Origin: Anthopleura xanthogrammica
Taxonomy: Eukaryota; Cnidaria; Anthozoa; Actiniaria; Actiniidae
Length of the DNA stretch: 64,000 nucleotides
Assembly: GCA_964019055.1 (NCBI GenBank)
Contig: OZ025218.1
Coordinates: forward strand, 3,866,169-3,930,168
Reading direction: 5' to 3'
Shown piece after piece: positions 30,484-55,559 of the stretch (the first letter of the stretch is position 1; each line of letters starts with the position of its first letter). The position numbers and the translations under genes are program-made. Below the pieces are notes generated by a model that was given only the letters and a program-made list of their open reading frames with translations, did not search any database and had not been told where the DNA came from.

Positions 30484-30559
<76 letters not shown>

Positions 30560-33500: not shown

Positions 33501-36500
33501 AACGAAAGACTTTAGGTCAAAGAGAGTGTTAGAGTACATGTAAGTATTTACCATTGCAAAAACGTTGTAGTATACATTTATCAGAATTATATACAAATAC
33601 CTGATGAGATGCAACAATGGTATGGCCGTGTATAGAATGAAAGTTAACAAAAAAACACTTCTTTGCCTTACTTTGAAGCAAGACATGTCAAAAACATAAG
33701 GTTTTAAAGTATAGGATATTAATGGATTATATTTATTTGTATATTTGTATAATATGTTTCAGCAGCCCTGCTGTCATCATCAGTGTAAGCGATTGCAATT
33801 AGAGCGAGAATATAAATAGGCGTATAAAAAAGAATATAAATTAGAAAACTACAAAGCATGCAAAGACGTGAATTACATCGCTAATTTTAATTTATAGGCC
33901 AATTAATTATTACAAACTAATCGAAAAACCGCTTTGAAAACGTGTGCGCGCCATCGTTTTAGCATCTGCGTCCTCGTTACTCCAAGATGCTGCCAAGGAC
34001 GACGGTGCGCGCACGAACCTTACGTAATAAGGTTACGAAGCCACCGCAAACCACAAGCATTAAGGCACCGAAAATCATCTCGAAATCTCGAAATCCTAAG
34101 ATTTTTATTCAGCACGGTTAATTATGGATTCCACAGGGTGCCCTCAACTGCGAGATTGGTATCGCTGGTCGCTACGCTCGCAACAGTTATCCTTTTTTCT
34201 GATTATTTTTTTATTTTTCGGGCCTTGAAAACATAGCAAAGAGTCCCCTTGCAATATTTGAGCTTTCTGCAGTCTTGAAGTTCATAACGCGCGCATAAGA
34301 ATTTCATACTGAATTCCCCATTATGGTTGCCATGGTAATTCAGCGATTTTCTTGTGGGCACACGTTTTACAATTAAAGAGATACAATATGAAAACAATTT
34401 ACAAAATTATAAATAGAAATAAATATAATATAATAATTAAGGAAGTATAATATAATAGAGTGGTAATAATATAATAGAGTGTATGTGGTTGTTGAATTAG
34501 TGTAAACTTTCGAGTCAACAACCACAACGCTTGTGGCTAAGTTCGAATGTAAGCCACTACATCAAACCAAGATTAACAACTCAATGATTGTCGCAAAACC
34601 AAAGAGATGCGGCTCATTCACCTATTGGGTACTCATAATCCCAATGGGTTGAATGAACGCTTCGCTTTTAATTAATCTATTCTTTTGTCTTTTCATTATT
34701 TTTTCTTGTTTTTTTCTTGTAACCTTGCCTACCTTGCTCTCATTGGTTATCTATTTTCTATCTTTATCATATATACACTACCTTCCACTCTTATTCTCTC
34801 TTTTGCTCCGACGAAGGACTAGCGTCCGAAACGTTTATTTATAAAAAATATCTTTTAGTAAGTGATCTCTCTTATTTTTTACGGTGTAAAATTTAAATTT
34901 TTATCACAACTGTTATTATTTAAGTTAATTAATTGAATATTAACTAGTTATACCTTTTAAAAAAAAATAATTTAGAGATTTGAGTGACAACAAAATGTTA
35001 TACATCGATGACAGAGCATTCAGTACTTTGGAATCTATACAAACCATGTAAGTCTGTCAAAAATGGCGAAATTGTATATGTTATTCTAAAAATAGTGCTT
35101 TATCTGCAAGGTGTTTTTCTTCCATCCGTTTTCCTCGGTTTTTACATATCTTTTTGTCTGCATTTCTCAGTTACTTCATATATCCTTTTTTTTGTAGAAA
35201 ATTAAACATGAACTTCCTTAGAAGTCTTGGCCAAGAAACTTTTCACAATCTCAGCTCACTACAAGTATTGTGAGTATAGTAGATTGCACTATATGAACAT
35301 ATTTATAATAATAATAATAATAATAATTCTTTATTTAACGTGGGTATCAAATACAGCAGAATAAGTGAGCTGGTTTCAAATTTGGTTCACAAAAAAAAAT
35401 CTTTAAACTTTAAAACTTTTAAACTTTAACCTCAGAATTTCATTTCCGCCTTGAGTGCCGCTTGTTACATCTTCATACTTGTTAATAGAAAGCCACCCTT
35501 TAAAACAACTACCATGTTGGACAAGTGAACAGCTATGTACAAAAAATTGTTACTAAGTGGATCGTGTTCAAGTACGGCGTAAAATGATCAAAAAAAAAAA
35601 CATTACAAACATTCAAGGTACTTTTTAAGGATGCTTTTGAGAAAAAAAAACATTCTCTAAATACAGGGACCGCGGAGCATGGGGGGCCGGGGGCTATAGC
35701 CCCCCAATAATTTTGCCACCATCTTGAATTATTTATTTGCTAAGTTCTACGGCTCTTCTCGATAAATTAAGTGTGTAAAATATGAAATAAATGTCAATTT
35801 AAAAAGCCAGTTCTCCAACGAATCCAGCAGTCCATTAGACTTCTCTAAACCCATGATTTATTACGGTGACACGAAAACGAGCCTAGCGTAGACGTCACGA
35901 TATCACAGGTTAAAGGACTTTTTCGATGGCAAAGAGATTAGAGACATGGCTGAGTCAGTGCTAACATGATTCAAGAACAACGATTCAACAACGATTCTCT
36001 TAAACTGCCACAAAGAGCGGACAGTTAATTAGACTCCGAGTCAAGTGAGTTTGTGTAGAGGGAGCATGCCCCAAACCCCCCTGGGTGCTACAGCCTTTCT
36101 TGGTCGTAACCCTTCCCCCCCCCCCCCCCCTTCAAAAAAAAAAAAAAAAAAAAAATCAAAATTCGGCTCCGCGGTCCCTGAAATAGTTATTTGCTTGTGA
36201 TCCTCCAAATGTTAACAAACAATTTTGCTTAACTTATTATTGCATAGATATAAGTTTGTCATGAATGGCGTAGAGAGAGAAAGGGATAAAAAAAGGTGTT
36301 GTGTGAATATTCTCTCTTGAAATTCAGGTGGTTTCCAATTATTATATATGCGCCTTTTTGCATACAAAAGTCAAAATATTCAAAGCGTAAATAACAGTAT
36401 GGCGTGGACATTTGCCTTTCCTTCCCAATGCCCAAATAATCATTTAGTTACTGTTATTTTATGATTATGGTATATGTTATTGTATTAATTATTGTATATT

Positions 36501-37349
36501 CACTATCAGGGACCTGGCAGAAAACTTAATCGACGAAATTCATCCTGACACTTTCCACTCGTTGGTCAATCTTAAAGTTCTGTGAGTACTATATAGTTAG
36601 GTGATATTGCATAGCTACGTGTATATTAGTCTTTTACATTTTCTAATCTTAGCCCCCCCTCCCCCCCTCCACCTTTTTCCTTAATTCTACATACTAGCCC
36701 TCCTACTTTGAAATGTGCTCTGCCGTCCCTGCTAGGTCATTGGAAATCTACGCTGAATTTTGGTTATTGCTCTGCACCTTGAAGAGGTGTGTTTTCGGCT
36801 ATTTTACAGGATATTTGGTAAACTTTCTTTAAATTATTAAGCTAGGCACTTTTTCGCAGATTGAGAGAAAACCACTGACGTCAGCGTGCTACCCATGGGC
36901 GTAGTTCATAATAAATTAGCCAATCAGAGCGTGCGGTTTCACTTTTCTATATCATAAAAAGTGTAACAGTTATGCTGACGTAACATTCGCACTTAACTCT
37001 CTATTATGACAATTTTTATAACGAGAAGCCACCCGAGATATTTCAAAATTGTGTGTGTTTTCTCACACTACTTACGGTTGTCAAATTACAAATAGTTTTG
37101 AGGTAACACTCGTTGTACTCATGCCGATTATCACTATAGGCCATGCCAAGTTTTTACCTGTCAAGTTTTTCCGTTTAAATCAAGGACTTATGTGAAACTT
37201 TCACTTTTTCTGGTACCTGATCCGTAGTTTGATTGACTGGCGCTATTCTCTCAGATCACCAGAATGTTAATAGATATTTTTCAGTTTATGATTTAAATGA
37301 TGACGTTGATTGGTTTTCACATGTTAAAATGCGCAATATAAGTATTACA

Positions 37350-37380
<31 letters not shown>

Positions 37381-40300
37381 TCTTATTTTGAAGGAGCTTA
37401 AGATCCAACTACATATTCAATATCGACCCGAAACACTTCCAAGGAAACTCCGAGCTGCAGTATCTGTAAGTACTCCATCTAGTTGACACTTGCGCTATGA
37501 TTCATTTACTTATAACTTTGTATATGTGATGACTTTGTTGTTGCTATTTTATTCGTTGTTTATATTTAGGGGTTAGAGACTGATGTGAGTGTTTTGTTGG
37601 AGAATAAATGCACGCGCTGACTGTATAATGAACGAGAAATTTGAATACTGCACGAGGCGGAGAAATTTCGAGTTCATTATACAGTCAGTAAGTGCATTTA
37701 TTCGCCAACAAAACACGAGCTAGAAGTCTCTTACCCTTTTAATATGCAAACTGAGTACGCTGCAGAGCAGACGGCGCGACATGTTTCAAGTTGTCATTTA
37801 CGAATTACGAGTATTGTAAAATTGAGAACTTTAATCAAAAAGTATTTTAATTTTCAAACAGCCATTACTATTTTAATAAGTACAGAAAGTAATACAAAAG
37901 GGAAGATAAATAAATAACTCCCAACTCTAAATACGAAAATAATTCAATAATTCTGACTCAAATCTTTATTCACTTGTCAATTTGTTTTATTACTCGTATT
38001 GAACTTTACACTTGCTAGTGCCTTTCTCTTTGATTCTCTACAATTAATTCAGCATGAAATAATAGTGACTTTGAAAACGGGAAAGCTATTCAGTATATAG
38101 AAAACGTGTTGAAAAAAGTTGGTAGCGGTTGATACCTGCTCTGTAAATGCAAAAGTGAGCTGAGCGACTGTAGTGTTTTCCTAGGTTGAGTTTTAGTTCT
38201 TGATAGAATTTTTCACAGCCTTTCCGCAAGGATTTATTTCCCTAAGTTTCCATAATTTCTACTTTTAGTCGTACAGTCGTTTGGTTTTACCTTAAAAGAC
38301 GGAAATTCCTCATTGCGTTTGTCGCTTGGTTGAACTAAAATCGCCTCAACTATCAAAACTTCAATTTCCTGGTCGTTAAGTTCCTCAAATCTATCATTTT
38401 CTCCTTCGATTTGTATAGTACACTCCATGCCAAGCGTGTACTTAACTGTATAAAATCACGACAAGCCCGTTGTCCTCAAATACAACGATATCATGTGATC
38501 GATTTTAGCCTATGAGCTGCTTGAATTTTGGTCAGTGTACGAAGTTTGCATATTAATACTTGTTATCGGTTAGTCATTAGCTGCTAATGTGACGCAAAAC
38601 GTCCACATTAACTTGTTTTCTTTTTAAGCTATCTGCAACATAACCAGATCGAGGAAATTCAAGATTTTGTGTTCAAAAATTTACATAAGCTTAAAGTCCT
38701 GTAAGTATAGGCATTCAGGGATAAAAGCACAGCACAGCACAGCACAGCACAGCACAGCACAGCACAGCACAGCACAGCACAGCACAGCACAGCACAGCAC
38801 AGCACAGCACAGCACAGCACAGCACAGCACAGCACAGCACAGCACAGCACAGCACAGCACAGCACAGCACAGCACAGCACAGTTTCTGTTTCATTTTTAT
38901 CCTCTTAGTTTAAATGTACATAAACGTGGCGTATATTCTCTTGCATCTTTAATTTCTAGGTCTCTAAATGACAATAAAATCAAGCAAATTTCACAAGGGG
39001 CATTTCGAGGGCTTCGTTCTCTAGACAAACTGTAAGCAAATTTCACTTGTTATGGTTATACTTTACTAAAATCATCATTATCATCATTATTATCATCATC
39101 ATCATTTATTCATTACAATTATCCCCACCGCTATCAACGTTACTATTAATGATTTTTATTACTTTTACTTTTATTAAAGATAATTAACTATAATCATTAA
39201 TATCATTTATATTTCCTACCGTTATTATCATTCACGTGAAGGCATCTTCATCACAACAAATTTGCAGTTGTACCGGAGACGACATTCTCAGACATGGAAA
39301 ACCTCAAATTTCTGTAAGTATAAAAACAATGTTGGCGCAGTGTTTGATTTGATCGCTGTAAGATTTACTTTTTACCTAGTTCTAAAGAGTTTGTATTTAT
39401 AACACTTTAATTAGTGAGGTTGACTACTTCATGCTCTGCTGCTTTGCCAAGAGATTCGCACCAAACGTCAACTGTGATGCTCCATCTGATGAGTTTTCTA
39501 GCTGTGATGATCTCATGAAAAACAAAGCTGCAAGAGCTTCCATTTGGATTCTTGGGATTCTGGCTTTCTTGGGAAATATCTGTGTTGTTGCTTGGCGACT
39601 CACTCTAAGTGAGGACAACAGAGTTCAATCTCTCCTGCTCACCAATTTGGCAATTTCCGACTTCTTAATGGGCGTGTATCTCCTGATTATAGCAATAAAA
39701 GATGCACAGTGGCAAAAGGTATACTTCACTAAAGACTTTCTGTGGAGGAACGGACGCCTGTGCCAGTTTACTGGAGCACTTTCTATGCTGTCCAGTGAAG
39801 TATCTGTTCTGATGCTAACCGTCATTACCGCTGATCGATTCAAATCCATCGTTTATCCCATGAAGTTTGGAAAGCTTTCTTATAAAAGTGCTTTGGTAAT
39901 TTGCATCATCGTGTGGGTATTCGGACTGATAATTTCTTTCTTGCCAACAAGTGAGCTCGAGTATTTTTACGATGTGGAAGCAGAGATGGGATTTTACGGG
40001 CGTTCGTCAGTCTGTCTTCCTCTGCAGCTTTCCACTTCTCGTCTAGCTGGTTGGGAGTATTCAATCAGCTTATTCATTGCACTCAACCTTGCGGCCTTCA
40101 TCTTCATATTTTTTGCATATCTTGCAATCTTTATCACAGTCAAGAAATCTTCAGCCAAAACCCAAACCAAGAACGCCAAGAAAGAGGCAGCCATTGCATG
40201 GAAGGTGATGGCTATCATCCTGACTGATTTCTTTTGTTGGATGCCAGTCATCATCATCGGGATTCTTTCCCTCACCGGTGATTTCTACGATCCTCAAGGT

Positions 40301-43300
40301 CTTGCATATGTCTGGATTGCAGTTTTTGTCTTACCAGTCAACTCTTCAATCAACCCCATTCTTTATACCTTCTCTAACGCTGAAGTCCGTAAGAAGTTCA
40401 ATAGCTATTTCAGCTCACCGAATAGTGACCATGAAAATACTACTCAAGGTAATTAATGAATTCATTTATTAATCATAACTATTACAATATCCTGAAATCT
40501 GATTGGTGGATAAACTGTCTCTGTCTCTGTCTCTGTCTCTGTCTCTGTCTCTGTCTCTGTCTCTGTCTCTGTCTCTGTCTCTGTCTCTGTCTCTGTCTCT
40601 GTCTTTCTTTTTTCTTTTTTCTTTTTAATTACTTTGAATAGCTGGGTTTCACTTGACGTCATTTCCTGTATCGTGCGGAATGTTCATCAGCTGAATCACA
40701 AGTTTTCAATAGAATTCTGTCTGGCTGACAGCGCATGGTGGTCAGTGTTTGACCACCATTTGGAGCAGATAATGAGATTCAAAGACTTTTATCAGCTGAT
40801 TGGAACCCAGCTATTGGGCTCCCCTGAGATAGATGGTGGGAAGGATGGAAAGAAGCGACTTAATAATTAATAGGACAAAAATAACTAACACTTTTCTTAT
40901 TCAAAAACATTTTTTTCAAAAACATTTTTCTCAATAGCGACAATCCTGGTTTCAAAGACAAACTCCAAAGATTTCCAAGTATCCTCCATTCCAGCAAACC
41001 TGAAGTTGAAAAAAGTATTATCAGTATTCCAGTCGGACAAGGATACCAATGAAGTGGTAAGGGGTACCTTCGTTTCAGAACAAGTTATGACGAAATGAGC
41101 TAGGGGAGACTGCGTTGATAGGGGAAGGAGGGTATCGCAAGATATCGTCAAAAATGCACCAAATGAACTAATTTAAATTTCTATGAAATTATTGTAAACT
41201 ACTTATGATATCACAGGTAGCCCAAGCTATGGTTCTGAATATATATAGAGAGAATGTATGGCAGATCAAAACATTTCTTTAAAATAAAATAAATTTCATA
41301 TCTTATTGTTTCTTTACCGGTATATCAATGTTTTATTGCATGTTTTGTGGTTTGCTGACGGTTTGGTTGCATTTTAAGGCGATTTTAGGAAATTTTATCT
41401 CCTCTCTAAAGACGAAGTCAAGGTAGGAATCCTCAGACTCGGGTGCTTTGCTTCAACAGGCCGTAAATCGCCAGAAATCTGTTTCACAGCAAATTTTTCA
41501 CTGGCTACCCTTCGCCCAATAAATATCCAACACATCTAATCCAAAAATTGCTATATCGCTTCACTTCTTCCCGTCGAAATTCGCAAATATATACGCTCTA
41601 AATAGACAACTTCATCGGCGGACGGATCAGTCTCGCCACGGATTCAACGGTTGGTGACAAATCATTGGCTGTGTGGGGGAGGGTACATGACAAACGTTGA
41701 CCTTTTCCCAGACTAAAAACTGCTCGATGACAGCGAGAAACAAGACCAATGTTTAGTTGAACGGAATGTAAAATTTATGCAGAGGAAAACCAGAACGTTT
41801 AGAGCTCTATTTCGTAAACATTATCTAGAAATCTTGACTTATTTTTGGTTTTATGGATAAGGAATCTTTTATTTCGAGCGGTTTTTAGTCTGGTCAAAGG
41901 TCAACGTTTGTCATGTACCCTCCCCCACACAGCCAATGATTTGTCACCAACCGTTGAATCCGTGGCGAGACTGATCCGTCCGCCGATGAAGTTGTCTATT
42001 TAGAGCGTATATATTTGCGAATTTCGACGGGAAGAAGTGAAGCGATATAGCAATTTTGTGTTGGATATTTATTGGGCGAAGGGTAGCCAGTGAAAAATTT
42101 GCTGTGAAACAGATTTCTGGCGATTTACGGCCTGTTGAAGCAAAGCACCCGAGTCTGAGGATTCCTACCTTGACTTCGTCTTTAGAGAGGAGATAAAATT
42201 TCCTAAAATCGCCTTAAAATGCAACCAAACCGTCGAAAAACCACAAAACATGCAATAAAACATTGATATACCGGTAAAGAAACAATAAAATATGAAATTT
42301 ATTTTATTTTAAAGAAATGTTTTGATCTGCCATACATTCTCTCTATATATATTCAGAACCATAGCTTGGGCTACCTGTGATGATATTATGTTGTTTATAG
42401 GGTTACTTGACGTGCTGGGAGGAGAATGATTCAGAGTCTTTGTTGCTGCTCAAATGTTTCATACCAGAAAACCATGTTAATTGGATTCGAGAGGTCAATG
42501 TTCTAAAGCTGTCGAACAGTGGAAAGGAAAATGAAACTCTTTTGAGTTATAAATGGCATTCCAAAGGCAAGAAGAAAAATACCTTTTTTACGGCTTGTGT
42601 ATATGTTTATTGTCAATAGCCCTTCACCCTGCTCTTCTAGAGAACCTTTTACATCTTTCTTTTGCGTAAACTATGTCATGCATGTGTAGGAGTACCTTTC
42701 AGCAATCTGTTTACATGAATGCACCATTGTAGGGCTAGCTCAAAATTATGAAATAATCACGAAATCTCGGCTCGAGATTTTAAGATTTTCCAGCTTTGCT
42801 CAAAAACGCAAAGCAGCTTCTAATGCCTCAAATTTTGCACGGGATTCTATACTTTTATTATGCTTAATTGAAAGAACTTCAACAAATCTACGTTATATTA
42901 AATTTTTAACGAAAGTTATTTTTTCTAACCCATGAAAAAATAGATTTTTGTCTGAATTTCTGTTCGACTTTATGATAATTATGAGAGCTGAAAGGACGAA
43001 ATATGACAAATCGATGTATTTCTTTATCTTTTGTTTAAAAATATCCATGTCGTATTGTAGAATAATTCTCTAGCCGTCCTTTGTACATAATATAGTCTGC
43101 AAAGAACTACTATCTTATGAGTTGTAATTTTTTTCCTGATCACTTCCGGTGACGCAATCTTTGCTTCAAAAACTCGCGCGTAGGCACCATTAAATGCTGA
43201 TTATCTCAAAAACGAGCTCGGGACACTCCATTTATCTTTTCATATTCGGAATCAGTATTAAATTTCACTTTAAAAAATTGTAGTCAACTTAAGAGAGTGA

Positions 43301-46300
43301 GATTTATATACCGAGAATGGAGGCTATAATAGTCAGGTCTGTTAGGGACGAAAATAGCAAAGATCGTGCACTTTTGAGTACAATCACCAAACTTGGCACA
43401 AATGCTCCTTGGGGCATCATACTAAACAAATTTGGGGGTAGGCGCCAAAAAAATGGCGGTCGGGGGGAGGGCACGCCACACTCTCAATGACATTGTTAAA
43501 TTCATCAAAATTCATCAAAATTCATCAAAATTCATATCAAACGAAAAACTTTCCTTCAAGTTTTAACTCCTCTAACATGGAAGAGTTGTTTAAAATAGTA
43601 TGAATGGCGTTTACAGTTTGTTGATATCTCTCTTTGTTGCAGAGATATCAAAAGTTTTTTTTTCTACATTTTTCTGTTAAAAATAGGTTTTAAAAAACCC
43701 CTTAGGAATTAAAATCTACGATACGCCTCTTTGCTTTATTTCCTTGAAAGGTTTTTCTGGTAAAAAAGGCTCAGTTACAGTTTGTTTAAGATGTTATTTT
43801 GCTGATAAAGTTCAATATTTTGAACTAAAACAATTAGACCTCTCGCCCTCATGGTCTACGAGTCAATATCCCATTCGGCCTTCGGCCTCATGGGCTATAG
43901 CATACTATTCACGACAGTCCCTTTTATGCTCACTAAATACGAAATGGAGGACCGCGACCACGCTTAAGCGAGTTGGAAGTGACCACACAATGGGAGAGGA
44001 GAGAGGGTAAATGGAAAAGCGAGGATGCAGTGGGTGCAAACGTTAAAGTAGATGAGATTCGCCATGGCCGACCACTGCCGACAGATTCTTACGCGAACTG
44101 GGCCGATGTGAGATGCGCAGCTCTTATTTATACTCGCTCTGCAAGGGACTGACGCGATAGAGCTTATAAGTGTTTCAACTGCTCACAAAAACCGCTAAAA
44201 TAGAGCGAACAATATTCTCAATGATTTAAACTCCACTTCACTTAGTAAGTGAAGTGGAGTTTAAATCATTGAGAATATTGTTCGCTCTATTTTAACGGTT
44301 TTTGTGAGCAGTTGGAAATATGTCCCAACTTAACAGCGTTATTGACTCGTAGACCATTTGGGCTTCGGGTCTAATCGTTAAATAGACCTACTAGTAGAGG
44401 TCTATATCTAGATATAAACCTCATATCGTATTCAATCCCATCGGGTTTATATCCGAGATACAACCCGATGAATAACAAAGAAAACCGTAATACGTAAGAA
44501 TTATTAACTGTTAACTACTTTTCTTTTTACAAACCGCCTTCAATGCAGTTAAAAATCTTGACATCAAAACTAACAACATCGAAATTCCTGGGATGCCTCT
44601 TTTGCCAAACTGTAGGTAAGACTAAGAAGTTAAGCTTAAAATAGTGAAAATTGGGAAAGTAAATGACAAGAAACAAAGTGCGCATGCGTTGTTTTGTTTG
44701 ATTCACATTACAATATCGGTCTTCTAGTTTTGTAGATGGGGGAGGGGTGTGGTGCTTATATACGGTGTCTGTTGAGTTACAATATATATGGCAATTATGA
44801 AAGTTGGCGAGGTGACGAAATACATAAAAGCTGCAAAATTGAGCCGTTTTTGAAAAAAGTTTTTTTCAGACATCGAATTTCCTTGATTATTATTATAAGT
44901 AATAGCATGACTTGATGGTGATTAGTGATTAAATTACCCCGAAAGCCGAGGGAGGTTTTGTTGAAGTCCCGACACCGTAGGAGACATTTAATCACTCAAT
45001 CACCCGAAATGTCATGCTTTGTTTGTAATATCATGCTTACCGAGGAATAAAAAGTCTATTCTTAGAAAATATATGTTAGCATTCGTACGAAGCATAAATT
45101 ACAAAATTTTACAAAGCTGTTGATTTGCGGCATACTTTGTTGAATGAGACAATGCCGAATTGAACCAGCATTCATTCATTCGTGGTGCTTTATTCTAATT
45201 CACAATGTCTTTCAAACCGTATTGATACGTCACAAATCGTATGAAAAATTCCCGATGTATTTAACGCATGCGCTAAGATTTCTCAATAGGTCCCACAAGT
45301 GCTGGGGTGTTGAATAGTGTGTAGTGCAAAGTCATTGCTTCAAAATTCCTATTGGGTCAATGCGATCCAGCCATGGTCCCGGTGATTGTCATATGAGGGA
45401 CCATGCCTCATGAATAGTGATGAGAGATATTTAGACTAAATATCCCTCATGATTATATTCACGAGGGATATGTAGACTAAATTGCACTCCACTCAGTTTT
45501 ATTATCATTATTAATATCCCTCATCACTATTCATCCAGAGGGATGTTAGACCTTAAACATCCCTCTGGAAACAATGGATCCCGAGGTAATCATGATATTA
45601 TCACTCTTTTCCTCACCCGAAACCCCCTGTATCACACTGCATGTTCTTACGGACCAAAATTTCAATTGTTTTACAGTGTGATCTGCTTTGGCTTTTCAAC
45701 GACTTATATTCCACTTATGAAGTTCCTGCAAGGTTCAGACTCTACTGCCAGGGTTGAAAATCTGTTCACAGTAATCCTAGATGTTCTTAAGGCGGTCGAA
45801 GAACTACACATATGTGGTGTTAGTCATGGAGATGTCGCTGCACATAACGTCTTGATTGACCATAATGTCTGTTGTAGGGTACGTAACAGTGGATATGTGG
45901 TGAACGAGTAAGAGCAGCATGTAAGATATTCGAACAGCAATTGCTTTTATTCTCTCCAAGAAATATCATGGGTTTGAAAGCGAAAGGATGGTATGGTATG
46001 TTATGGTATGGTATGGCATGGCATGGCATGGCATGGTATGGTATGGTATGGTATGGTATGGTATGGTATGGTATGGTATGGTATGGTATGGTATGGTATG
46101 GTATGGTATGGTATGGTATGGTATGGTATGGTATGGTATGGTATGGTATGGTATGGTATGGTATGGTATGGTATGGTATGGTATGGTATGGTATGGTATG
46201 GTATGGTATGGTATGGTATGGTATGGCATGGTATGGCATGGCATGGTATGGTATGGTATGGTATGGTATGGTATGGTATGGTATGGTATGGTATGGTATG

Positions 46301-47962
46301 GTATGGTATGGTATGGTATGGTATGGCATGGCATGGCATGGCATGGCATGGCATGGCATGGCATGGCATGGCATGGCATGGCATGGCATGGCATGGCATG
46401 GCATGGTATGGTATGGTATGGTATGGCATGGCATAGTATGGCATGGCATGGCATGGCATGGCATGGTATGGTATGGTATGGTATGGTATGGTATATTATG
46501 GTTTGGTATGGTATGGTATGGTATGGTATGGTATGGTATGGTATGGTATTGTATGGTATGGTATGGTATGGTATGGTATGGTATGGTATGGTATGGTATG
46601 GTATGGCATGGCATGGCATGGCATGGCATGGTATGGTATGGTATGGTATGGTATGGTATGGTATGGTATGGTATGGTATGGTATGGTATGGTATGGTATG
46701 GTATGGTATGGTATGGTATGGTATGGTATGGTATGGTATGGTATGGTATGGTATGGTATGGTATGGTATGGTATGGTATGGTATGGTATGGTATGGTATG
46801 GTATGGTATGGTATGGTATGGTATGGTATGGTATGGTATGGTATGGTATGGTATGGTATGGTATGGTATGGTATGGTATGGTATGGTATGGTATGGTATG
46901 GTATGGTATGGTATGGTATGGTATGGTATGGTATGGTATGGTATGGTATGGTATGGTATGGTATGGTATGGTATGGTATGGTATGGTATGGTATGGTATG
47001 GTATGGTATGGTATGGTATGGTATTGCATAACGTAACGTAGAAGTAGAGTACGTTTTGTGTGCACATGTGTCTACCCAAATGCAAATTATATCAAATATT
47101 TCTTCTTTTTTTTCCAGTTTCCACCAATCCATGCAGTTCTGGGTGGGTTTGACAAAGCAAGAATTGTGAAGTCAACCTCAAGGGCTGCTCAGGCATACAA
47201 GACAGACATACATCAAGTCGGTAGCCTTATTAAAGAAATGTTGACCATTTGTGGTCACCTTGGACAGTTTGAAGAGGTAGGAAAAACATGTTTTTTTTTT
47301 GTTATGAATAAATTAATAAATAGCTAATAATAACTACGGAATTTTCAAATGCAAAAAAAATATGCAACTTTAACATATTTCCGATGGTTTAGCGTGGTAT
47401 GTCCTCTTATTTACCACGATATAACGTCAAACGTTGGTCAAAATGTTATGTACTCACGAGGCGTAGCCGGTAAATAAGAGGACATACCACGCTAAACCAT
47501 CGGAAATTTGTTTTTTGCCATTAAAAAAAAGTCAAATAAAAGAGCCAAATACGAAGAAAAAGTTTGAAAGAAAAAACCGTTTCAAGCGGGCAGTGATACG
47601 TGGCCGAGCGATTCGTCATTTTATCGGTATGTCCTCTTATTTACCCCGGGTCTCGACCAATCAGCGCGCGAGAGGTATTATGGTAAAATCACAATTATGG
47701 TAAAAATAATTTTTTTTTACTTTTTTCGGAACTAGAGGCTTATCTAACTAGGGTAGGGTAGCGTTCTACGCAAGATTAAATGTACTTTAGAAAAACTGAT
47801 ATTATCGTTGACTTTTTAAATTCTTTGAATCAGGTCAGTGATGTGATTGAGATGTGCTTCCAGGAATCTTCTGAATGGCGACAAAGAATAACTGAAATCA
47901 GAAGTTTCTTTGAAAAGGCTTCTGATGATTATGACGACAAAGAAATGGAAACACGATTATAG
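2088..47962 (+). CDS. Multi-module adhesion-type LGR receptor with C-terminal pseudokinase (5' partial, about 40 exons)
   Basis: One gene model built from splice sites and reading phase. All consecutive exons keep frame, and extracellular module borders are almost all phase 1, as expected for shuffled modules. Order: N-terminal segment, MAM, LDLa x3, MAM, partial MAM, 'GCFKD' module, pentraxin-like, MAM, CUB, LRRNT, eight LRRs, 7TM, kinase-like domain, stop at 47960-47962. About 6.34 kb of coding sequence is visible (about 2,114 residues). The first exon is entered in phase 1, so the signal peptide and start codon lie upstream of the window or were missed. The family resembles Lymnaea GRL101 and relaxin receptors (LDLa plus LRR plus 7TM); the MAM, pentraxin and CUB modules and above all the kinase-like tail are additions. 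The weakest junction is 17842 to 22012. If that fails there are two genes, but the downstream part then lacks any visible start or signal peptide. Expected location: plasma membrane, large ectodomain outside, kinase-like domain inside. Confidence 0.72.
2575..2739. mobile_element. Palindromic MITE (arms about 50 bp)
   Basis: Left arm 2575-2622 (AGAGGCTTTGCACCATCACG onward) is repeated in inverted orientation at about 2690-2739, with a non-palindromic centre of about 65 bp. Located in the intron between receptor exons 2 and 3. Confidence 0.75.
3313..4062 (+). CDS. Receptor exons 4-5: MAM domain 1
   Basis: Exons 3313-3557 and 3954-4062 join in phase 0. The first encodes the MAM core ([15 protein letters not shown] strand: [15 protein letters not shown], then [11 protein letters not shown] and RLLWQERG). 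The second encodes the MAM end, [27 protein letters not shown], corresponding to the family pattern of an Asp-rich strand followed by a terminal Cys. MAM domains are about 160-170 residues and mediate extracellular adhesion or dimerisation; this one is somewhat short. It precedes the LDLa exons by a phase-1 junction. Confidence 0.7.
3665..3785. repeat. Small inverted repeat around an AT-rich ACAATA tract
   Basis: TAAATCCATGTCCAAGT near 3668 is mirrored by ACTTGGACATGGATTTA near 3765. The interior is rich in ACAATACA repeats. It sits within the intron that splits MAM 1. Confidence 0.6.
4199..4420 (+). CDS. Receptor exon 6: LDLa repeats 1 and 2
   Basis: A single 222-nt phase 1-1 exon encodes two complete LDL-receptor class A repeats. 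Repeat 1 has [27 protein letters not shown] and a closing Cys. Repeat 2 has [32 protein letters not shown]. Each has six cysteines and the acidic SDE calcium cage (CDGxxxCxDxSDE), so both should bind calcium. In GRL101 and relaxin receptors, LDLa repeats lie amino-terminal to the LRRs and are needed for signalling. Confidence 0.9.
4575..6425. mobile_element. Long-TIR fold-back element carrying a LINE fragment
   Basis: Arms of about 450 bp (about 4580-5030 and 5965-6420) are inverted copies: GACATTATGCTGCTTA, TTCTCGCTCGCTTCGCAAAA, CCATCTTGAACCGGAAGTG and AATTATTGAATTCATACGAA all recur reversed. The unique centre contains a minus-strand LINE reverse-transcriptase fragment (5871-5686: [20 protein letters not shown]). 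It occupies the intron between LDLa exons 6 and 7. Confidence 0.8.
5540..5871 (-). pseudogene. LINE reverse-transcriptase fragment inside fold-back element
   Basis: The minus-strand peptide [20 protein letters not shown] then [14 protein letters not shown] matches the thumb-proximal 'GMEFGxxKCAxL' segment of non-LTR retrotransposon RTs. It is short, lacks the catalytic core and is flanked by the two inverted arms. Confidence 0.7.
6717..6861. mobile_element. Near-perfect palindromic MITE
   Basis: GGTTAGAGAATAAACGCGAG at the left is matched by the inverted CGAGTGTTTATTCTCTAACC at the right, and the arms meet around GCCACGAGGGCGAAACCCGAGT. About 65-bp arms. From 6862 to 7756 I see only a short inverted repeat near 7160-7260 and AT-rich sequence. 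Confidence 0.8.
7757..8467 (+). CDS. Receptor exons 7-8: degenerate third LDLa and linker
   Basis: Exon 7757-7879 (phase 1-1) encodes a cysteine pattern like LDLa ([34 protein letters not shown]), but the calcium-cage SDE is replaced by DKSN. Calcium binding is therefore doubtful. Exon 8393-8467 (phase 1-1) encodes a short Cys-containing linker ([20 protein letters not shown]) leading into MAM 2. Both join their neighbours in frame. Confidence 0.68.
8551..11096 (+). CDS. Receptor exons 9-11: MAM domain 2
   Basis: Exons 8551-8691, 9721-10013 and 10994-11096 (phases 1-1, 1-0, 0-1). The start [15 protein letters not shown] is a classic MAM opening (Cys-x-F...FCG). It is followed by [23 protein letters not shown] (the conserved [10 protein letters not shown] strand), WYLGEVEMP and the end [21 protein letters not shown]...C. 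All canonical MAM strands are present, so this is the best-preserved MAM of the receptor. Exon 10 lies just after a cluster of AT-rich palindromic repeats. Confidence 0.85.
9135..9456. mobile_element. TIR element with 'GTGTCAAAGTTTTAGGGATTC' ends (copy 1)
   Basis: Left end 9139-9180 and right end 9418-9458 are inverted copies of CGCAAAAGTGTCAAAGTTTT plus AGGGATTCG. The interior shares GGTATTCTAGAACAACTTGG with copies near 18025-18283 and 21690-21850. A nested small palindrome, 9300-9415, interrupts this copy. Confidence 0.72.
9457..9680. mobile_element. 220-bp palindromic element 'AGCCCTAGTGATAGGCA' (copy 1 of 5)
   Basis: Perfectly structured fold-back: outer ends CAGCGATATGCAGAAATT / inverted at 9660-9675, inner arms ATCAAAAGTATATCGGAAAT / inverted, and a conserved loop AGCCCTAGTGATAGGCA. 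It is flanked by TATATA runs. It lies about 40 bp upstream of MAM 2 exon 10. Confidence 0.85.
10288..10939. mobile_element. 650-bp DNA element with 21-bp TIRs
   Basis: CTTAAGGTGACTGACTACTTT at the left and AAAGTAGTCAGTCAACTTAAG at the right form terminal inverted repeats with few mismatches. Non-coding interior. Partial relatives at 960-1205 and 42730-43290. The stretch 10050-10190 before it is GTTGGTTGG low-complexity sequence. Confidence 0.8.
11436..11615. mobile_element. Single-arm copy of the 280-bp palindrome
   Basis: AGGGAGCCCACAGCCACTGG through TTATCAGCTGCTAACGTTGC and CGTAGAATAT matches one arm of the palindrome at 57767-58046, with a short insertion after GCACGAG. The second arm is absent. 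Confidence 0.7.
11650..12985. mobile_element. 1.3-kb element 'X' copy 1
   Basis: Begins near GTCTAAAAGCGGAGCTCCCA and ends near AGTGCTCCGCTATAAAAAG, so the ends form a short inverted repeat around GCGGAGC. A second, inverted copy occupies about 27400-29565. Both contain similar short open frames (for example 12498-12692, 27949-27758), but no transposase is recognisable, so it is probably a non-autonomous DNA element. Confidence 0.68.
13127..13888. mobile_element. 760-bp TIR element
   Basis: Left AATTCGGTGCGGGCACAATC... with CCCTCCCC, and right GGGGAGGGGGTGATTGTGCT...GCGCCGAATT, form inverted ends extending about 130 bp (GATCACCTGG and GGGATTGATTCTTATTC also mirrored). No coding capacity. From 13889 to 15268 I see no identifiable feature. 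Confidence 0.72.
15269..17451 (+). CDS. Receptor exons 12-15: microexon and partial MAM domain 3
   Basis: A 21-nt microexon 15269-15289 (encoding about SITGYP) is followed by 15801-15962, 16228-16310 and 17334-17451, all phase-compatible. The sequence includes [11 protein letters not shown] (compare [13 protein letters not shown]), GWRYVQVPL and a C-terminal [17 protein letters not shown], matching the second half of a MAM domain. The first half, including the FCG opening, was not found, so the domain is truncated or diverged. Confidence 0.62.
16016..16178. repeat. (CCAT)n / (CCGT)n microsatellite
   Basis: About 90 bp of CCAT tetramers changes to CCGT tetramers and back to CCAT. The clean block switch suggests a CpG-bearing variant expanded as a unit. 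In the intron between receptor exons 13 and 14, ending about 50 bp before exon 14. Confidence 0.95.
16703..16795. repeat. (TAA)n-(TTA)n inverted microsatellite
   Basis: A TAA run of about 65 bp switches to its complement ATT/TTA for about 30 bp, so it can fold on itself. Around it (16430-17330) nothing else was identified apart from AT-rich sequence. Confidence 0.93.
17528..17842 (+). CDS. Receptor exon 16: cysteine-containing 'GCFKD...ANDVY' module
   Basis: A single exon encodes about 105 residues with [10 protein letters not shown] near the start, [22 protein letters not shown] in the middle and [14 protein letters not shown]...ANDVYVI at the end; four cysteines. The layout loosely resembles WSC/carbohydrate-binding modules, but I cannot name the family with confidence. 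The donor AAAC|GTACGG at 17842 gives phase 1 and joins exon 17 at 22012. If it is not used, the frame runs to a stop at 17863-17865. That alternative would end the protein here as a secreted MAM/LDLa product. Confidence 0.65.
17945..18027. mobile_element. End fragment of the 1-kb element 'Y'
   Basis: TCATGGAAAGTGCGCGCGTA then CGGTTTTTATTCACAAGTTG and CGAACAAGCGAGTCTTC match the first 75 bp of the element at 31857 with few differences. Confidence 0.75.
18025..18283. mobile_element. TIR element with 'GTGTCAAAGTTTTAGGGATTC' ends (copy 2)
   Basis: The 35-bp ends (ACACCGAATCCCTAAAACTT left, inverted at the right) are intact and the interior includes CAAGTTGTTCTAGAATACC. About 250 bp, flanked by TATATA. 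Non-coding. Confidence 0.8.
18285..18510. mobile_element. 220-bp palindromic element (copy 2 of 5)
   Basis: Ends CAGCCTTTTGCAAAAATTAT and its inverse; loop AGCCCTAGTGATAGGCA. Immediately adjoins the TIR element that precedes it and is followed by a (TA)n tract. Confidence 0.87.
18556..19025. mobile_element. Two adjacent palindromic MITEs
   Basis: First: 18558-18710, arms ATTACATGG...ACGAATTTTATCTTC and the inverse, meeting at GTGAGCGCAGCGAACGAGTG. Second: about 18880-19020, arms TGCAATTTGGTCTGATATCA and the inverse, meeting at CACGACCGCGTAGCGGGAGT. Both have the same hairpin-tip style, with CGnnnGCG at the turn. Confidence 0.75.
19394..19615. mobile_element. 220-bp palindromic element (copy 3 of 5)
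   Basis: CAGCTTTTTGCAAAAATTAT at the left and its inverse at the right; the same inner arms and loop. Flanked on both sides by (TA)n of 20-40 bp. Confidence 0.88.
19651..20279. repeat. Direct repeat pair, 165 bp
   Basis: 19651-19815 and 20115-20279 are near-identical, starting ATGAGATTTGTTAACATAAA and ending TTGCTTTGACAAACTTCAT. They are separated by about 300 bp of unique sequence. They may be LTR-like ends of a small element or a local duplication; no coding or primer-binding site was recognised. Confidence 0.75.
20290..20512. mobile_element. 220-bp palindromic element (copy 4 of 5)
   Basis: Ends CAGCGATATGCAGAAATTCT and the inverse. The conserved loop is present in inverted orientation compared with copies 2 and 3 (TGCCTATCACTAGGGCT). 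Followed by (TA)n. Confidence 0.87.
20545..20975. mobile_element. TIR element with 'GCAGAAACGTTGTAGTATACATTTA' ends
   Basis: Left end at 20548 and inverted right end at 20945-20972 (TAAATGTATACTACAACGTT). One arm is also found alone at 33549-33690, including AAGCAAGACATGTCAAA. About 430 bp, non-coding. Confidence 0.73.
21490..21850. mobile_element. Palindromic MITE and adjoining fragment
   Basis: About 21495-21685 folds: GATAATGTCC then GATGAGAAATGGTCC, inverted at 21630-21660; the tip is CGAAGCTTCGCTTCTCGG. 21690-21850 is a partial copy of the GTGTCAAAGTTTTAG element, with GGTATTCTAGAACAACTTGG. Confidence 0.7.
22012..25330 (+). CDS. Receptor exons 17-20: linker and pentraxin/LamG-like domain
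   Basis: Exons 22012-22131, 22419-22617, 23292-23434 and 25091-25330 (phases 1-1, 1-2, 2-1, 1-1). Exon 17 encodes a linker with [10 protein letters not shown]. Exons 18-20 encode a jelly-roll domain: FTICFWVKC, then the pentraxin signature strand [20 protein letters not shown] (His-x-Cys-x-Thr-Trp), then [22 protein letters not shown] and GDVISW. These match the pentraxin order of H-x-C-x-T-W, a 'GxxNxW' strand and a C-terminal Cys...G-x-V-x-W. Pentraxin domains bind ligands in a calcium-dependent way; calcium residues were not checked. The intron before exon 20 carries two LINE fragments on the opposite strand. Confidence 0.8.
23939..24640 (-). pseudogene. LINE reverse-transcriptase fragment (R2/NeSL-like)
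   Basis: On the minus strand, [38 protein letters not shown] and [13 protein letters not shown] are RT domains A, B' and C (the catalytic box here reads YIDD). Downstream [14 protein letters not shown] continues the thumb. Frameshifts and a stop before MMSIHRFP break it. It lies antisense within the receptor intron between exons 19 and 20. Confidence 0.82.
24641..24991 (-). pseudogene. Second LINE fragment (CR1/Rex-like C-terminus)
   Basis: The peptide [50 protein letters not shown] and KTTLGDRA is the conserved post-RT end of CR1/L2-type LINEs. It abuts the preceding fragment, which is of a different clade, so one inserted beside or into the other. Confidence 0.85.
25331..26675. other. Intron between exons 20 and 21, no feature found
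   Basis: Contains an AT-rich stretch (26000-26110, TTTAT-rich) and a fragment near 25420-25480 resembling an end of the inverted repeat at 41211 (CACAGGCAGCCCAAGC). Open frames here look non-coding. Confidence 0.5.
26676..30059 (+). CDS. Receptor exons 21-22: MAM domain 4
   Basis: Exons 26676-26929 and 29951-30059 join in phase 0 across a 3-kb, transposon-filled intron. Exon 21 includes [32 protein letters not shown] (the MAM CLRFxYxMxGxxxGxL strand), KVIWMDD and MWKKGEVSL. Exon 22 supplies [15 protein letters not shown] as the domain end. Exon 21 is entered in phase 1 from the pentraxin exon, and exon 22 leaves in phase 1 into CUB. Confidence 0.75.
27160..27250. repeat. Small palindrome
   Basis: GATAAATGTATTATCTGTAG and its inverse CTACAGATAATAAATTTATC flank GTAAAAC, with partially mirrored outer sequence (GAACTCG / CGAGTTC). 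Confidence 0.7.
27400..29565. mobile_element. Element 'X' copy 2 (inverted) with nested insertion
   Basis: Inverse copy of 11650-12985. Sequences around 27450 (GAGTTGATTTTTCATGG), 27800 (AAGAATAATCTTTCAGC) and 28700 (GGTCACGCTGTTTCG) match reversed. It is interrupted at about 28770-29525 by another element of about 0.75 kb, after which element X resumes at GGTATGCTATTCCTTGGGAG. Confidence 0.7.
28770..29525. mobile_element. Nested 'GCGTTAATTT' element inside element X
   Basis: Bounded by CATACCTTAT on the left and ATAAGGTATG on the right. Contains a palindrome at 28795-28925 (TATGATCC...GGTCAGGGTAAAATTTGC, inverted) and sequence shared with window bases 1-280. Confidence 0.65.
30268..30490. 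mobile_element. 220-bp palindromic element (copy 5 of 5)
   Basis: CAGCTTTTTGCAAAAATTAT and its inverse at the ends; the loop reads AGCTCTAGTGATAGGCA, one base different from the other copies. Followed directly by the long (TA)n tract before the CUB exon. Confidence 0.87.
30486..30556. repeat. (TA)n microsatellite
   Basis: About 35 uninterrupted TA dinucleotides between the palindromic element and the CUB exon acceptor, which lies about 28 bp further on. Confidence 0.95.
30585..30929 (+). CDS. Receptor exon 23: complete CUB domain
   Basis: A single 345-nt phase 1-1 exon encodes a whole CUB domain of about 112 residues. Features: [24 protein letters not shown] opening, [24 protein letters not shown] (the CUB C-x-x-DYLxVYDG strand with acidic calcium-site residues), [10 protein letters not shown] and a closing [19 protein letters not shown]. 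Four cysteines are in canonical spacing. A long (TA)n tract ends about 30 bp upstream of its acceptor. Confidence 0.92.
31228..31700. mobile_element. Fold-back element
   Basis: Inner arms ATGACTTTTGGAGGGCATAT / inverse near 31345, with tip GCGCCCGAGCGCAGCGAGGG. Outer ends near 31220 and 31680 (AATGATTCATTGCAGGG) are less clear. Non-coding. Confidence 0.62.
31784..33380 (+). CDS. Receptor exons 24-25: microexon linker and LRR N-terminal cap
   Basis: Microexon 31784-31810 (27 nt, about VEPPGAKNS) is followed by exon 33263-33380 (phase 1-2). Exon 25 encodes the LRRNT pattern [12 protein letters not shown], then [22 protein letters not shown], the usual 'L-x-x-V-P-x-x-I-P' run into the first repeat. 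The phase-2 exit is then kept by every LRR exon. The intron between the two exons contains a 1-kb mobile element. Confidence 0.83.
31857..32905. mobile_element. 1-kb element 'Y' copy 1
   Basis: Runs from TTCATGGAAAGTGCGCGCGT to CTCGGTATGTATATAAT. An inverted copy lies at 50088-51063. Internal duplicated segments (CTTTTCCTCCGC...ATTTCATCGATTTTC twice) and a doubled TTCTGATTGGACGTATCG. No transposase seen. Confidence 0.75.
33468..39313 (+). CDS. Receptor exons 26-33: eight leucine-rich repeats, one per 72-nt exon
   Basis: Eight exons, each exactly 72 nt and phase 2-2: 33468-33539, 34976-35047, 35198-35269, 36510-36581, 37394-37465, 38629-38700, 38960-39031 and 39242-39313. Each encodes one 24-residue repeat of the form LxLxxNxIxxIxxxxFxxLxxLxx, for example [19 protein letters not shown] in exon 32. 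One-repeat-per-exon phase-2 structure is typical of LGR (glycoprotein-hormone and relaxin receptor) genes. The block forms the ligand-binding solenoid directly before the hinge. Confidence 0.9.
33549..33690. mobile_element. Half copy of the GTTGTAGTATACATTTA TIR element
   Basis: Matches the left arm of the element at 20545, ending at GCAAGACATGTCAAAA. From 33691 to 34975 I recognise no gene; a GCGCGC-rich imperfect inverted repeat lies near 33940-34015. Confidence 0.65.
35664..36181. mobile_element. hAT-like MITE with CAGGGACCGCGGAGC TIRs
   Basis: CAGGGACCGCGGAGC at the left and GCTCCGCGGTCCCTG at the right are perfect 15-bp TIRs. Ends of the CAGGG type are common in hAT elements. Internal poly-C and poly-A runs at 36112-36155. 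Non-coding, 518 bp, in an LRR intron. Confidence 0.82.
37570..37740. mobile_element. Palindromic MITE
   Basis: GGGTTAGAGACTGATGTGAG is partly mirrored by CTAGAAGTCTCTTACCC; GAATAAATGCACGCGCTGAC and its inverse are inner arms meeting near GCACGAGGCGG. The following 37741-38628 includes a minus-strand open frame (38428-38234) of unknown identity that I do not call a gene. Confidence 0.75.
38729..38881. repeat. (AGCAC)n pentanucleotide repeat, about 30 units
   Basis: Perfect tandem array beginning 28 bp after the donor of LRR exon 31 and ending about 80 bp before LRR exon 32. It fills most of that intron. Five-base units without stops give long spurious open frames on both strands. Confidence 0.97.
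39415..40448 (+). CDS. Receptor exon 34: hinge and seven-transmembrane domain (class A, LGR/relaxin-receptor type)
   Basis: One 1,034-nt exon encodes the hinge and all seven helices. The hinge ([16 protein letters not shown], then SSCDDLM) is typical of LGRs. Counting from the Met at 39431: TM1 about 36-58 with GN, TM2 about 67-92 with LAISDFLMG, the TM3 Cys (RLCQF) about 109, ADRF in place of DRY about 134, TM4 about 150-172, the ECL2 Cys about 193, TM5 about 206-237, TM6 about 253-281 with FFCWMP, TM7 about 291-317 with [10 protein letters not shown] (NPxxY). The Met at 39431 is internal, since the frame is open upstream to the acceptor at 39414. A donor CAAG|GTAATT at 40448 continues to the kinase-like exons. 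Retaining that intron adds only two residues (GN) before a stop at 40454-40456, giving a conventional short-tailed GPCR. Confidence 0.95.
40517..40604. repeat. (CTCTGT)n hexanucleotide repeat
   Basis: About 14 perfect units, 70 bp downstream of the 7TM exon donor. The tract is pyrimidine-rich on the transcribed RNA. Not telomeric (vertebrate and cnidarian telomere unit is TTAGGG). Confidence 0.95.
40938..47962 (+). CDS. Receptor exons 35-40: cytoplasmic protein-kinase-like domain, probably a pseudokinase
   Basis: Exons 40938-41056, 42401-42566, 44549-44615, 45677-45878, 47118-47276 and 47834-47962 are all in frame with each other and with the 7TM exon (phases 1-0, 0-1, 1-2, 2-0, 0-0, 0-stop); about 280 residues. 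Landmarks in order: no GxGxxG loop around [17 protein letters not shown]; beta3 LLLLKCF (VAIK Lys kept); alpha[10 protein letters not shown] (Glu kept); hinge [10 protein letters not shown]; alpha[13 protein letters not shown]; catalytic loop [11 protein letters not shown] (Asp and Asn kept, HRD Arg lost); GGFDKARIV where DFGLAR is expected, so the Mg-binding Asp is missing; alpha[17 protein letters not shown] (matches xSDIWSFGVLLxEx); alpha[15 protein letters not shown] (usual PxxRP Arg region). The exon 36 donor is GC (AAAG|GCAAG). Most like the tyrosine-kinase/TKL group. Loss of the glycine loop and DFG Asp argues for a non-catalytic scaffold or allosteric domain. Confidence 0.78.
41211..42380. 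mobile_element. 1.17-kb long inverted repeat in a kinase-domain intron
   Basis: TCACAGGTAGCCCAAGC at 41211 and GCTTGGGCTACCTGTGA ending at 42380 cap two arms of about 500 bp that match almost base for base (for example GGAGGGTACATGACAAACGT and its inverse), separated by about 120 bp. TGATA flanks both ends. The right end is 20 bp from the acceptor of exon 36. Confidence 0.9.
42730..43295. mobile_element. Diverged copy of the CTTAAGGTGACTGACTAC element
   Basis: Contains ATTATCTCAAAAACGAGCTC then GGGACACTCC and ends in GTAGTCAACTTAAGAG, like the element at 10288. The left terminus is unclear. Confidence 0.6.
43828..44385. mobile_element. Fold-back element with perfect 72-bp hairpin
   Basis: Outer ends TTAGACC...GGTCTACGAGTCAATA and the inverse near 44343-44380; inner hairpin 44172-44318 with arms CTGCTCACAAAAACCGCTAA / inverse and no loop (CACTTAGTAAGTG at the tip). 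Confidence 0.78.
44870..45560. mobile_element. Two diverged fold-back repeats
   Basis: 44885-45025: AGCATGACTTGATGGTGATT... with inverse ATCACCCGAAATGTCATGCT. 45405-45560: several inverted ATCCCTCATCACTATTCAT / ATGAATAGTGATGAGAGATA and CCAGAGGGATGTT / AACATCCCTCTGG segments. Both lie in the intron before kinase exon 38. Confidence 0.68.
45986..47030. repeat. 1-kb (GGTAT/GGCAT)n pentanucleotide satellite
   Basis: About 205 pentamers, mostly GGTAT, with blocks of GGCAT around 46017-46035, 46325-46405, 46437-46465 and 46605-46630 and a few single variants. It fills the intron between kinase-like exons 38 and 39. All reading frames are open for long distances because the unit has no stop; these frames are not genes. 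Confidence 0.97.
47375..47512. mobile_element. Palindromic MITE in the last intron
   Basis: TTTCCGATGGTTTAGCGTGG then TATGTCCTCTTATTTACC and a near-perfect inverse at 47465-47510, with centre ATAACGTCAAACG. A partial second TATGTCCTCTTATTTACC lies at 47628. Confidence 0.8.
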
Positions 47963-49812: not shown

Positions 49813-50087
49813 ATGTATACTTTTACTCTTCATTAAAACCCTATTCTAACCCTTCCAAGTGTGAATTATATTAGAGTTTATCGAAATAATATAGACTGAC
49901 TGATTACGTCATGATTAAGCTAAGGATGTTGTTTTGTTTCATCATTTCTTTATCTTGTTGGATTAGCCTTGGATTCATACTCCTACTCACTCCCCAAAAT
50001 ACGCTAAAGCTACCTTTTCGAATAAAATATGATGACCTTAATGGGATTTAAACCAATAACTTCTGACTAATATTCATAATTATTATA

Positions 50088-51063
50088 TACATACCGAGAT
50101 TTATTCAGTAAAATCCTGTGTAATAAATGTTCGTTCGTTCACTTTTCCCAACCAATCACAATGCGCGTATCGCTTTTTCACGTGTGAGAAAAACGTTTCG
50201 TCCAATCAGAAGCCACGTACAGCTTTTCTTCACGTGTGAGAAAAACGATACGTCCAATCAGAAGCCGGCAGAAACGGGCTCCACTGCTCTTTCGTGTGAG
50301 ACTTTCGACTAAACTAGAAAGTTTTTATTTCAAAACATGAATGAAACTATATTTTAGACGACAAAACCAAAGAGAAAATCGATGAATTACCAATAGTAGA
50401 GTGGAGGAAAAGCTGCCTGAGATGTAAATCTATTGGAAAAGTTCTTTAAAAGTACTGAAAACTTAAACAACAACAAGGAAAGCCAGCTTCAGTTGCTTTT
50501 GTAAGAAGACGACTTCGGTGAGACCTAAACTAGAAAGTTTGAGTTCAAAACATGAATGAAAATATAATTTAGACGACGAAACCAAAGAGAAAATCGATGA
50601 AATACCAATAGTAGAGAGGAGGAAAAGCTGACCGAGATGTAAATCTCGTGAAAAAGTTCTTAAAAATGTATTAAACAACAACGAGGAATTGAAAGGCAGC
50701 TTTGTCGTGTAATGAAGAAGGCAACAGAAACTTCGGTAAGCTTTCACAATCATTTATGGTGTAAACTAAAAGCCTAGAAGTTGAAAAGATTAAACTTAGA
50801 AACCGAATTAGAAATTAATAAGAATAAGTTTTTAATATGCTTGTAAAACAGCGTTGTAAAATAAAGAATTATTGCAATATAATTTTTAGTTTGCAAACTG
50901 AGCTTTGTTTACAAACTTTGTAAACTAAAATAGTCTCTAATTCAAACCAAATTGAAAATCTCGTTATGAAAATAATAAAATTCGTACACTCGCTTGTTCG
51001 TTTTATGATACTTCACAACTAGTGAATAAAAACCGTACGAGCGCACTTTCCATGAAGTAATCT
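50088..51063. mobile_element. 1-kb element 'Y' copy 2 (inverted)
   Basis: Reverse counterpart of 31857-32905: CATACCGAGATTTATTCAGT at the left and CGCACTTTCCATGAAGTAAT at the right. Internal doubled segments are also preserved. 51064-51420 beyond it holds nothing identified. Confidence 0.75.
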
Positions 51064-55521: not shown

Positions 55522-55559
55522 CTTTACACCTGAGGTACCTGCAATTATCTGCAATAAAT

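Follow-up and report, generated by a model that had tools for sequence, protein, structure and literature searches.

The fusion of a G protein-coupled receptor (GPCR) to a kinase has been reported outside animals and, within animals, from sponges only, as far as the accessible portions of two accounts go (PMC12716839, PMC5784254), and the available part of the second describes GPCR fusions to catalytic accessory domains as rare or nonexistent in metazoans. Among the leucine-rich repeat (LRR)-containing GPCRs (LGRs), relaxin-type and GRL101-type receptors have been described from cnidarians, and the sole mention of 'kinase' in the accessible text of that description is of receptor kinases for other ligands (PMC4079206). 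The gene analysed here lies in a stretch of 64,000 nucleotides, the window, from the sea anemone Anthopleura xanthogrammica (contig OZ025218.1, positions 3,866,169-3,930,168 of the forward strand; C13 in our locus labels); the genome searched for its relatives comprises 290 Mb in 125 contigs. We consider it probable that this is one gene for an LRR-bearing GPCR of the relaxin/GRL101 type, with a conserved and catalytically dead kinase domain as its cytoplasmic tail, which would form a tethered docking or allosteric module.

Structure of the gene and its paralogues

The seven-transmembrane (7TM) exon, exon 1 (39415..40448, plus strand, as are all exons of the gene), encodes a rhodopsin-family domain of the relaxin/GRL101 type (Pfam 7tm_1 in the joined protein, E=1.1e-32) and ends in phase 1. 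It is followed in frame by exon 2 (40938..41056), with a linker and the predicted beta1 region of the pseudokinase, exon 3 (42401..42566), with beta2, beta3 (the Lys of LLLLKCF) and alphaC (Glu), and exon 4 (44549..44615), a short variable segment that is matched in all four paralogues on contig C5 and in that at C12:5.66 Mb. Exon 5 (45677..45878) spans beta5 to alphaE and a degenerate catalytic loop, HGDVAAHN, exon 6 (47118..47276) carries the DFG position (GFD), a shortened activation segment and alphaF with TDIHQVG, and exon 7 (47834..47962) encodes C-terminal helices, including the alphaI-like EWRQRITEI, and the stop codon TAG. Joined, the seven exons encode 624 residues, with the first stop at 47960-47962, and the tail extends over 7.5 kb. 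The exon-end phases are 1, 0, 1, 2, 0 and 0, then the stop. Five of the six introns are GT-AG; the intron after exon 3 has a GC donor (AAAG at the exon end, then GCAAGA), a position at which all four C5 paralogues have GT. The initial annotation had proposed this structure, a phase-1 7TM exon at the 40448 donor and six in-frame exons to a stop. The exons were re-derived here, and the C5 paralogues (at 7.77, 7.63, 10.29 and 12.48 Mb) repeat it, each with all seven exons, identical end phases and no internal stop. The kinase landmarks that it had named, from LLLLKCF and the alphaC Glu to the later motifs, were also found in the order given.

In a search of the whole genome with the tail there were 44 matches at E<=1, 27 of them at E<=1e-5, and in all 27 cases a family 7TM exon precedes the match on the same strand. 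Counting the window, at least 44 full-length 7TM exons of the family share 46% or more identity with the query. Of the 22 that reach 55%, again with the window among them, 19 are followed by tail exons in the same orientation. The chance assembly that the initial annotation had judged unlikely is excluded, because exon order and phases recur in the four paralogues, the tail matches follow family 7TM exons and anthozoan predicted proteins hold both parts.

An ordinary LGR ending just past 40448, with a separate small kinase-like gene downstream, would fit two observations that weigh against a fused gene. If the 40448 donor is left unspliced, a stop codon follows directly, so that a short form is possible, and some family members have no detected tail. 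Three of the 22 close members have none in about 5.4 kb downstream (C11:9.31, C12:5.94 and C19:4.63 Mb). None was found either among 22 relatives at 46-50% identity, of which C3:0.47, C1:0.26 and C2:4.48 Mb had their downstream sequence read, while the other 19 were judged by absence from the tail match lists, where diverged tails could be missed. The six loci were read for about 5.3-5.5 kb past the 7TM exon, less than the length of the window tail, and a late or diverged tail is possible in them. The two-gene arrangement is nevertheless extremely improbable. Four paralogues keep the phase-1 donor together with the phase-1 acceptor of exon 2, 19 copies keep 7TM and tail side by side, both parts occur in predicted proteins from nine or more further genera of anthozoans, and every strong tail match stands behind a family 7TM exon. 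In addition, the joined sequence has no Met in exons 2 and 3 of the window, which would leave a separate downstream kinase gene with no early start codon in frame. On these sequence grounds the fusion of 7TM and tail in one gene is almost certain.

The tailless 7TM relatives at 46-50% identity are themselves expanded, with at least 12 full-length copies at C3:0.2-3.3 Mb and at least four at C11:3.8-4.0 Mb.

The initial annotation called the receptor relaxin-type, and human relaxin receptor 1 is its best relative among solved structures (E=9.8e-57), followed by the thyrotropin receptor (3.4e-36). GRL101 and relaxin-receptor names also predominate among the protein database matches listed. With a relaxin-type 7TM and an LRR ectodomain with LDLa (E=1.2e-21), the receptor is an LGR of type C. 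Upstream of the 7TM exon, on the plus strand, the window has Pfam matches above cut-off to two LDLa domains (4129-4425), two MAM domains (9702-10037 and 26624-26956) and a CUB domain (30428-31039), and matches below cut-off to a further MAM (3276-3608), a WSC-like (17395-17862) and a pentraxin-like domain (23239-23589). Between CUB and 7TM lie an LRR N-terminal region and LRR exons (33226..39315; exons at approximately 35202, 36514, 38633, 38964 and 39268), identified from a pattern scan, tblastn with anthozoan LGRs and LRR_8 matches below cut-off on two short pieces, with the exon at 39268 identified by eye. The seven ectodomain modules stand in identical order 5' of the 7TM exon in all four C5 paralogues, and some also precede the 7TM of other family members. 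From the order conserved in the four paralogues we infer that the ectodomain, LRR and 7TM exons form one transcript, and the whole gene probably spans about 45 kb.

Several repeats lie in and around this gene. An inverted repeat (41195-41727 and 41874-42397, 96% identity over 534 bases), probably a foldback element, fills most of the intron between exons 2 and 3, and the intron that separates exon 5 from exon 6 holds a run of the pentanucleotide ATGGT, repeated about 207 times, at 45988-47024. A reverse-transcriptase fragment (RVT_1, E=3.5e-8) lies within the presumed gene in antisense orientation (24148-24498, minus strand). A 0.9 kb element occurs twice in opposite orientation, at 32003-32908 and 50080-50980, 95% identical. 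Downstream of the gene there is a tandem duplication of about 6 kb (51490-56613 and 58047-62643; also 57076-57943 and 63133-64000), 93-99.9% identical in pieces, whose minus-strand open reading frames include a CRAL_TRIO-like piece just below the Pfam cut-off (22.1 vs 22.6 bits).

Fold, catalytic residues and selection

The initial annotation described the tail as a protein-kinase-like domain and proposed a profile search of the joined exons as a check. In such a search PK_Tyr_Ser-Thr matches the tail alone above cut-off (E=8.1e-7), at exon 5 and covering the catalytic-loop region only, while Pkinase stays under its cut-off for the window tail. Such modest and partial scores count against a kinase assignment. 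Pkinase is above cut-off in the paralogue at C12:10.95 Mb (E=2.1e-10). When a profile built from 12 tails of this genome was compared with solved structures, TYK2 and JAK kinases aligned from alphaC to alphaF (best TYK2, E=1.8e-12), with a long gap at the activation segment. By its matches to kinase profiles the tail belongs to the kinase superfamily. The kinase-like part of the description stands and is refined to a pseudokinase, in which the DFG position reads GFD, the glycine-loop motif is absent and most of the activation segment is gone.

Residues were surveyed in 33 aligned tails, 12 from the same genome and 21 from the protein database. The beta3 Lys and alphaC Glu are retained in 25 of the 27 tails with letters there, the exceptions being two octocorals, and the window tail keeps both the catalytic-loop Asp, in HGD, and the Asn. 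These are the features that would be expected if the tail still phosphorylated substrates despite its unusual motifs, which we regard as very unlikely. The HRD Asp is retained in only 6 of 33 tails and the DFG Asp in 4 of 32 (lost in 28, the window included), and a catalytically complete member was sought among the 33 and not found, none having both catalytic Asp residues. The stretch between the DFG Phe and the alphaF Asp/Asn position measures 11-29 residues in the tails, compared with 40 in TYK2 as counted on the profile alignment, and no GxGxxG glycine-loop motif was found in the joined window tail. The set that marks an active kinase, HRD and DFG Asp with a glycine-rich loop and an activation segment, is thus not present. 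Since the catalytic Asp pair is lost, the activation segment is cut and the glycine-loop motif is missing, the tail should not phosphorylate substrates. The domain is kinase-related, has lost key catalytic residues and is kept by selection, as expected of a pseudokinase, and it is very probably a shrunken, catalytically dead one that would carry out no catalysis.

Ratios of nonsynonymous to synonymous substitution (Ka/Ks) were calculated for the ten pairs of genes that can be formed from the window copy and its four paralogues on C5 (P5a-P5d). Every pair has a ratio of 0.10-0.19 for the 7TM. In nine pairs the tail, taken from exon 3 onwards, gives 0.27-0.36 and is under purifying selection. 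The linker, that is the end of the 7TM exon with exon 2, gives 0.36-1.58. Between window and P5a exons 4-7 range from 0.11 to 0.32, with exon 6 at 0.11, and exon 7 reaches 0.62 between window and P5c. These per-exon values indicate that exons 4-6 are better constrained. Some of the results would suit a decaying relic, a former kinase domain drifting without function: the catalytic residues are lost, constraint on exons 2 and 3 is weak in some pairs (1.84 and 0.71 between window and P5a), the P5c-P5d tail gives 1.38, from 12 differences, and no tail was found in 25 of the at least 44 family members, although downstream sequence was read for only six of the 25. The weak exons and the P5c-P5d ratio also tell against a conserved module. 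Decay is however hard to reconcile with a tail Ka/Ks of 0.27-0.36 in nine of ten pairs, with intact frames in five complete genes and with fold-core residues retained from anemones to octocorals, and we think it very improbable.

Tails in other animals and their origin

A search of 5.8 billion proteins with the 7TM and tail together gave 327 matches at E<=1e-5, of which the best 120 were examined. Nematostella P0001 aligned over 99% of the query at 51% identity, and the alignment also ran past the 7TM in Oculina, Porites, Acropora millepora, Acropora digitifera, Desmophyllum, Stylophora, Exaiptasia and the octocorals Dendronephthya and Paramuricea. Among the matches listed, at least nine other genera of anthozoans have 7TM and tail within a single predicted protein. 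A search of other anthozoans for a 7TM and a kinase-like domain in one protein had been suggested as a check, and predicted proteins of Nematostella, Exaiptasia, corals and octocorals do hold both. Judging by these predictions and by 19 family members in the same genome, the tail is not peculiar to the window gene and is found in other hexacorals and in octocorals. Public databases already contain predicted proteins with this architecture, named for example GRL101-like. A query with the tail region alone, from the 624-residue piece, gave nothing at E<=0.001 among 1312 candidates, a result that reflects query-length and word limits, because the longer composite query found relatives.

The C-termini of 109 of the 120 listed proteins (11 had no pattern match) were cut after NPxxY and scored with the 12-tail profile. 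Twenty of the 109 gave E<1e-12, 17 from cnidarians and three from hemichordates, Ptychodera P0030 (59.7 bits) and Glandiceps P0054 and P0043 (51.3 and 41.6 bits). Next came Haliotis P0105 (4e-6) and Ruditapes P0118 (8e-5), and the remaining C-termini scored 0.016 or worse. The C-terminus of P0014, at 68.5 bits with the cnidarian profile, was taken as tail-positive. P0054 is above the Pfam cut-off for PK_Tyr_Ser-Thr (24.4 vs 23.1 bits), and P0030, P0043, Nematostella P0001, Exaiptasia P0016 and Paramuricea P0022 have kinase-model matches below cut-off. With less certainty than for anthozoans, then, hemichordate GRL101-like receptors appear to carry related tails, and the statement of the initial annotation that GRL101 has no kinase would fail for some GRL101-like receptors. 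When the Glandiceps tail was used as query, the sole match among 267 candidates was the query itself, and the spread of the tail in bilaterians is therefore poorly known.

The Haliotis P0105 and Ruditapes P0118 C-termini, which match the tail profile weakly, are possibly eroded pseudokinase tails; P0105 has no Pfam kinase-model match at 0.1. The C-terminus of Porites evermanni P0026 was not trusted, as unrelated domains continue after the tail. The absence of a tail from database proteins may reflect truncated models, as in Actinia tenebrosa P0013, which stops 38 residues into the C-terminus and whose 7TM is 92% identical over 331 residues to that of the C3:13.66 Mb copy, which has tail exons.

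The presence of related tails in hemichordate GRL101-like receptors suggests an origin before the cnidarian-bilaterian split, and one old origin with losses is the reading that we prefer. Separate acquisition of a kinase-like tail by cnidarian and hemichordate LGRs is a real but lesser possibility. In a quick 7TM tree of 78 of 149 rows, the receptors of cnidarians group together (49 rows, of which 33 are tailed; SH-aLRT 99), apart from four tailless stony-coral rows elsewhere. The hemichordate tailed rows are not sister to this group and fall among GRL101-like receptors, RXFP2-like ambulacrarian receptors being closer to the cnidarians. The tail label requires 12 changes, and the tree leaves the origin unsettled. 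Two gains would also agree with the score of one true kinase of the same genome with the cnidarian-tail profile, 40.6 bits, near that of P0043 (41.6), and both mollusc tails score under several true kinases. However, P0030 and P0054 exceed all eight true kinases in this direction, and in the reverse direction a profile of the three hemichordate tails places all 30 other tails (28 cnidarian, two mollusc; 16.4-51.8 bits) above the best of the eight (15.2 bits), a thin margin for the lowest tails. The short activation segment and the position after the seventh transmembrane helix (TM7) are also common to both groups. For an ancient LGR-pseudokinase class with one origin before the cnidarian-bilaterian split, an expansion in anthozoans, survival in acorn worms, perhaps erosion in molluscs and loss in many lineages, we would put the case as evenly balanced.

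Comparison with known receptor and kinase systems

No description of an LGR with a kinase-like tail was found in the full-text literature, including the accessible parts of PMC12716839, PMC5784254, PMC4079206, PMC8286064, PMC11521371 and PMC6208332, with preprints and most subscription papers outside this scope. The LGR-pseudokinase appears to be an old receptor architecture of animals, undescribed in the searchable literature as far as its text was available. The class may have been missed because degenerate tails may escape kinase-based searches. If LGR-pseudokinases are really a conserved and expanded class, shared by anemones, corals and octocorals and probably also by acorn worms, the published picture would change. 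Relaxin-type signalling could make use of a pseudokinase joined to the receptor, and the way in which a GPCR switches such a domain would become testable. By carrying its own pseudokinase, a hormone receptor would have a tethered platform for signalling beside G proteins.

In such a receptor a peptide or hormone would bind the LRR/LDLa ectodomain, the 7TM domain would signal through a G protein, and the tethered pseudokinase might dock or switch a partner, such as a kinase, an arrestin or another effector, according to the state of the receptor. We speculate on this last role by analogy with receptor guanylyl cyclases and the JH2 domain of JAK kinases, in which a non-catalytic kinase fold serves regulation, and give a docking or allosteric role of the tail an even chance. 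The working analogy has a limit, in that the anemone pseudokinase ends the protein, with no cyclase or active kinase after it.

The closest likeness of the receptor itself is to RXFP1/2 and GRL101, the LGRs of type C, with which it shares the 7TM class (the best solved match being RXFP1) and an ectodomain of LRR and LDLa. It differs from them in the pseudokinase after TM7 and in the additional upstream MAM, WSC-like, pentraxin-like and CUB domains. To our knowledge, vertebrate RXFP1/2 are without a kinase tail.

The likeness to the fusions known from other eukaryotes lies in the architecture, and was drawn from descriptions in the accessible parts of the sources. The GPCR-TKs of choanoflagellates and sponges join a GPCR to a C-terminal tyrosine-kinase-type domain (PMC12716839), and the GPCR-TKL/K of acanthoecid choanoflagellates and the GPCR-TKL of oomycetes and amoebozoans likewise join a 7TM to a C-terminal kinase-type domain (PMC12716839, PMC5784254). 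The 7TMs of the acanthoecid GPCR-TKL/K do not cluster with other GPCRs, according to the available text (PMC12716839), whereas the 7TM of the anemone receptor is that of a rhodopsin-family LGR, and its kinase domain is without the catalytic residues.
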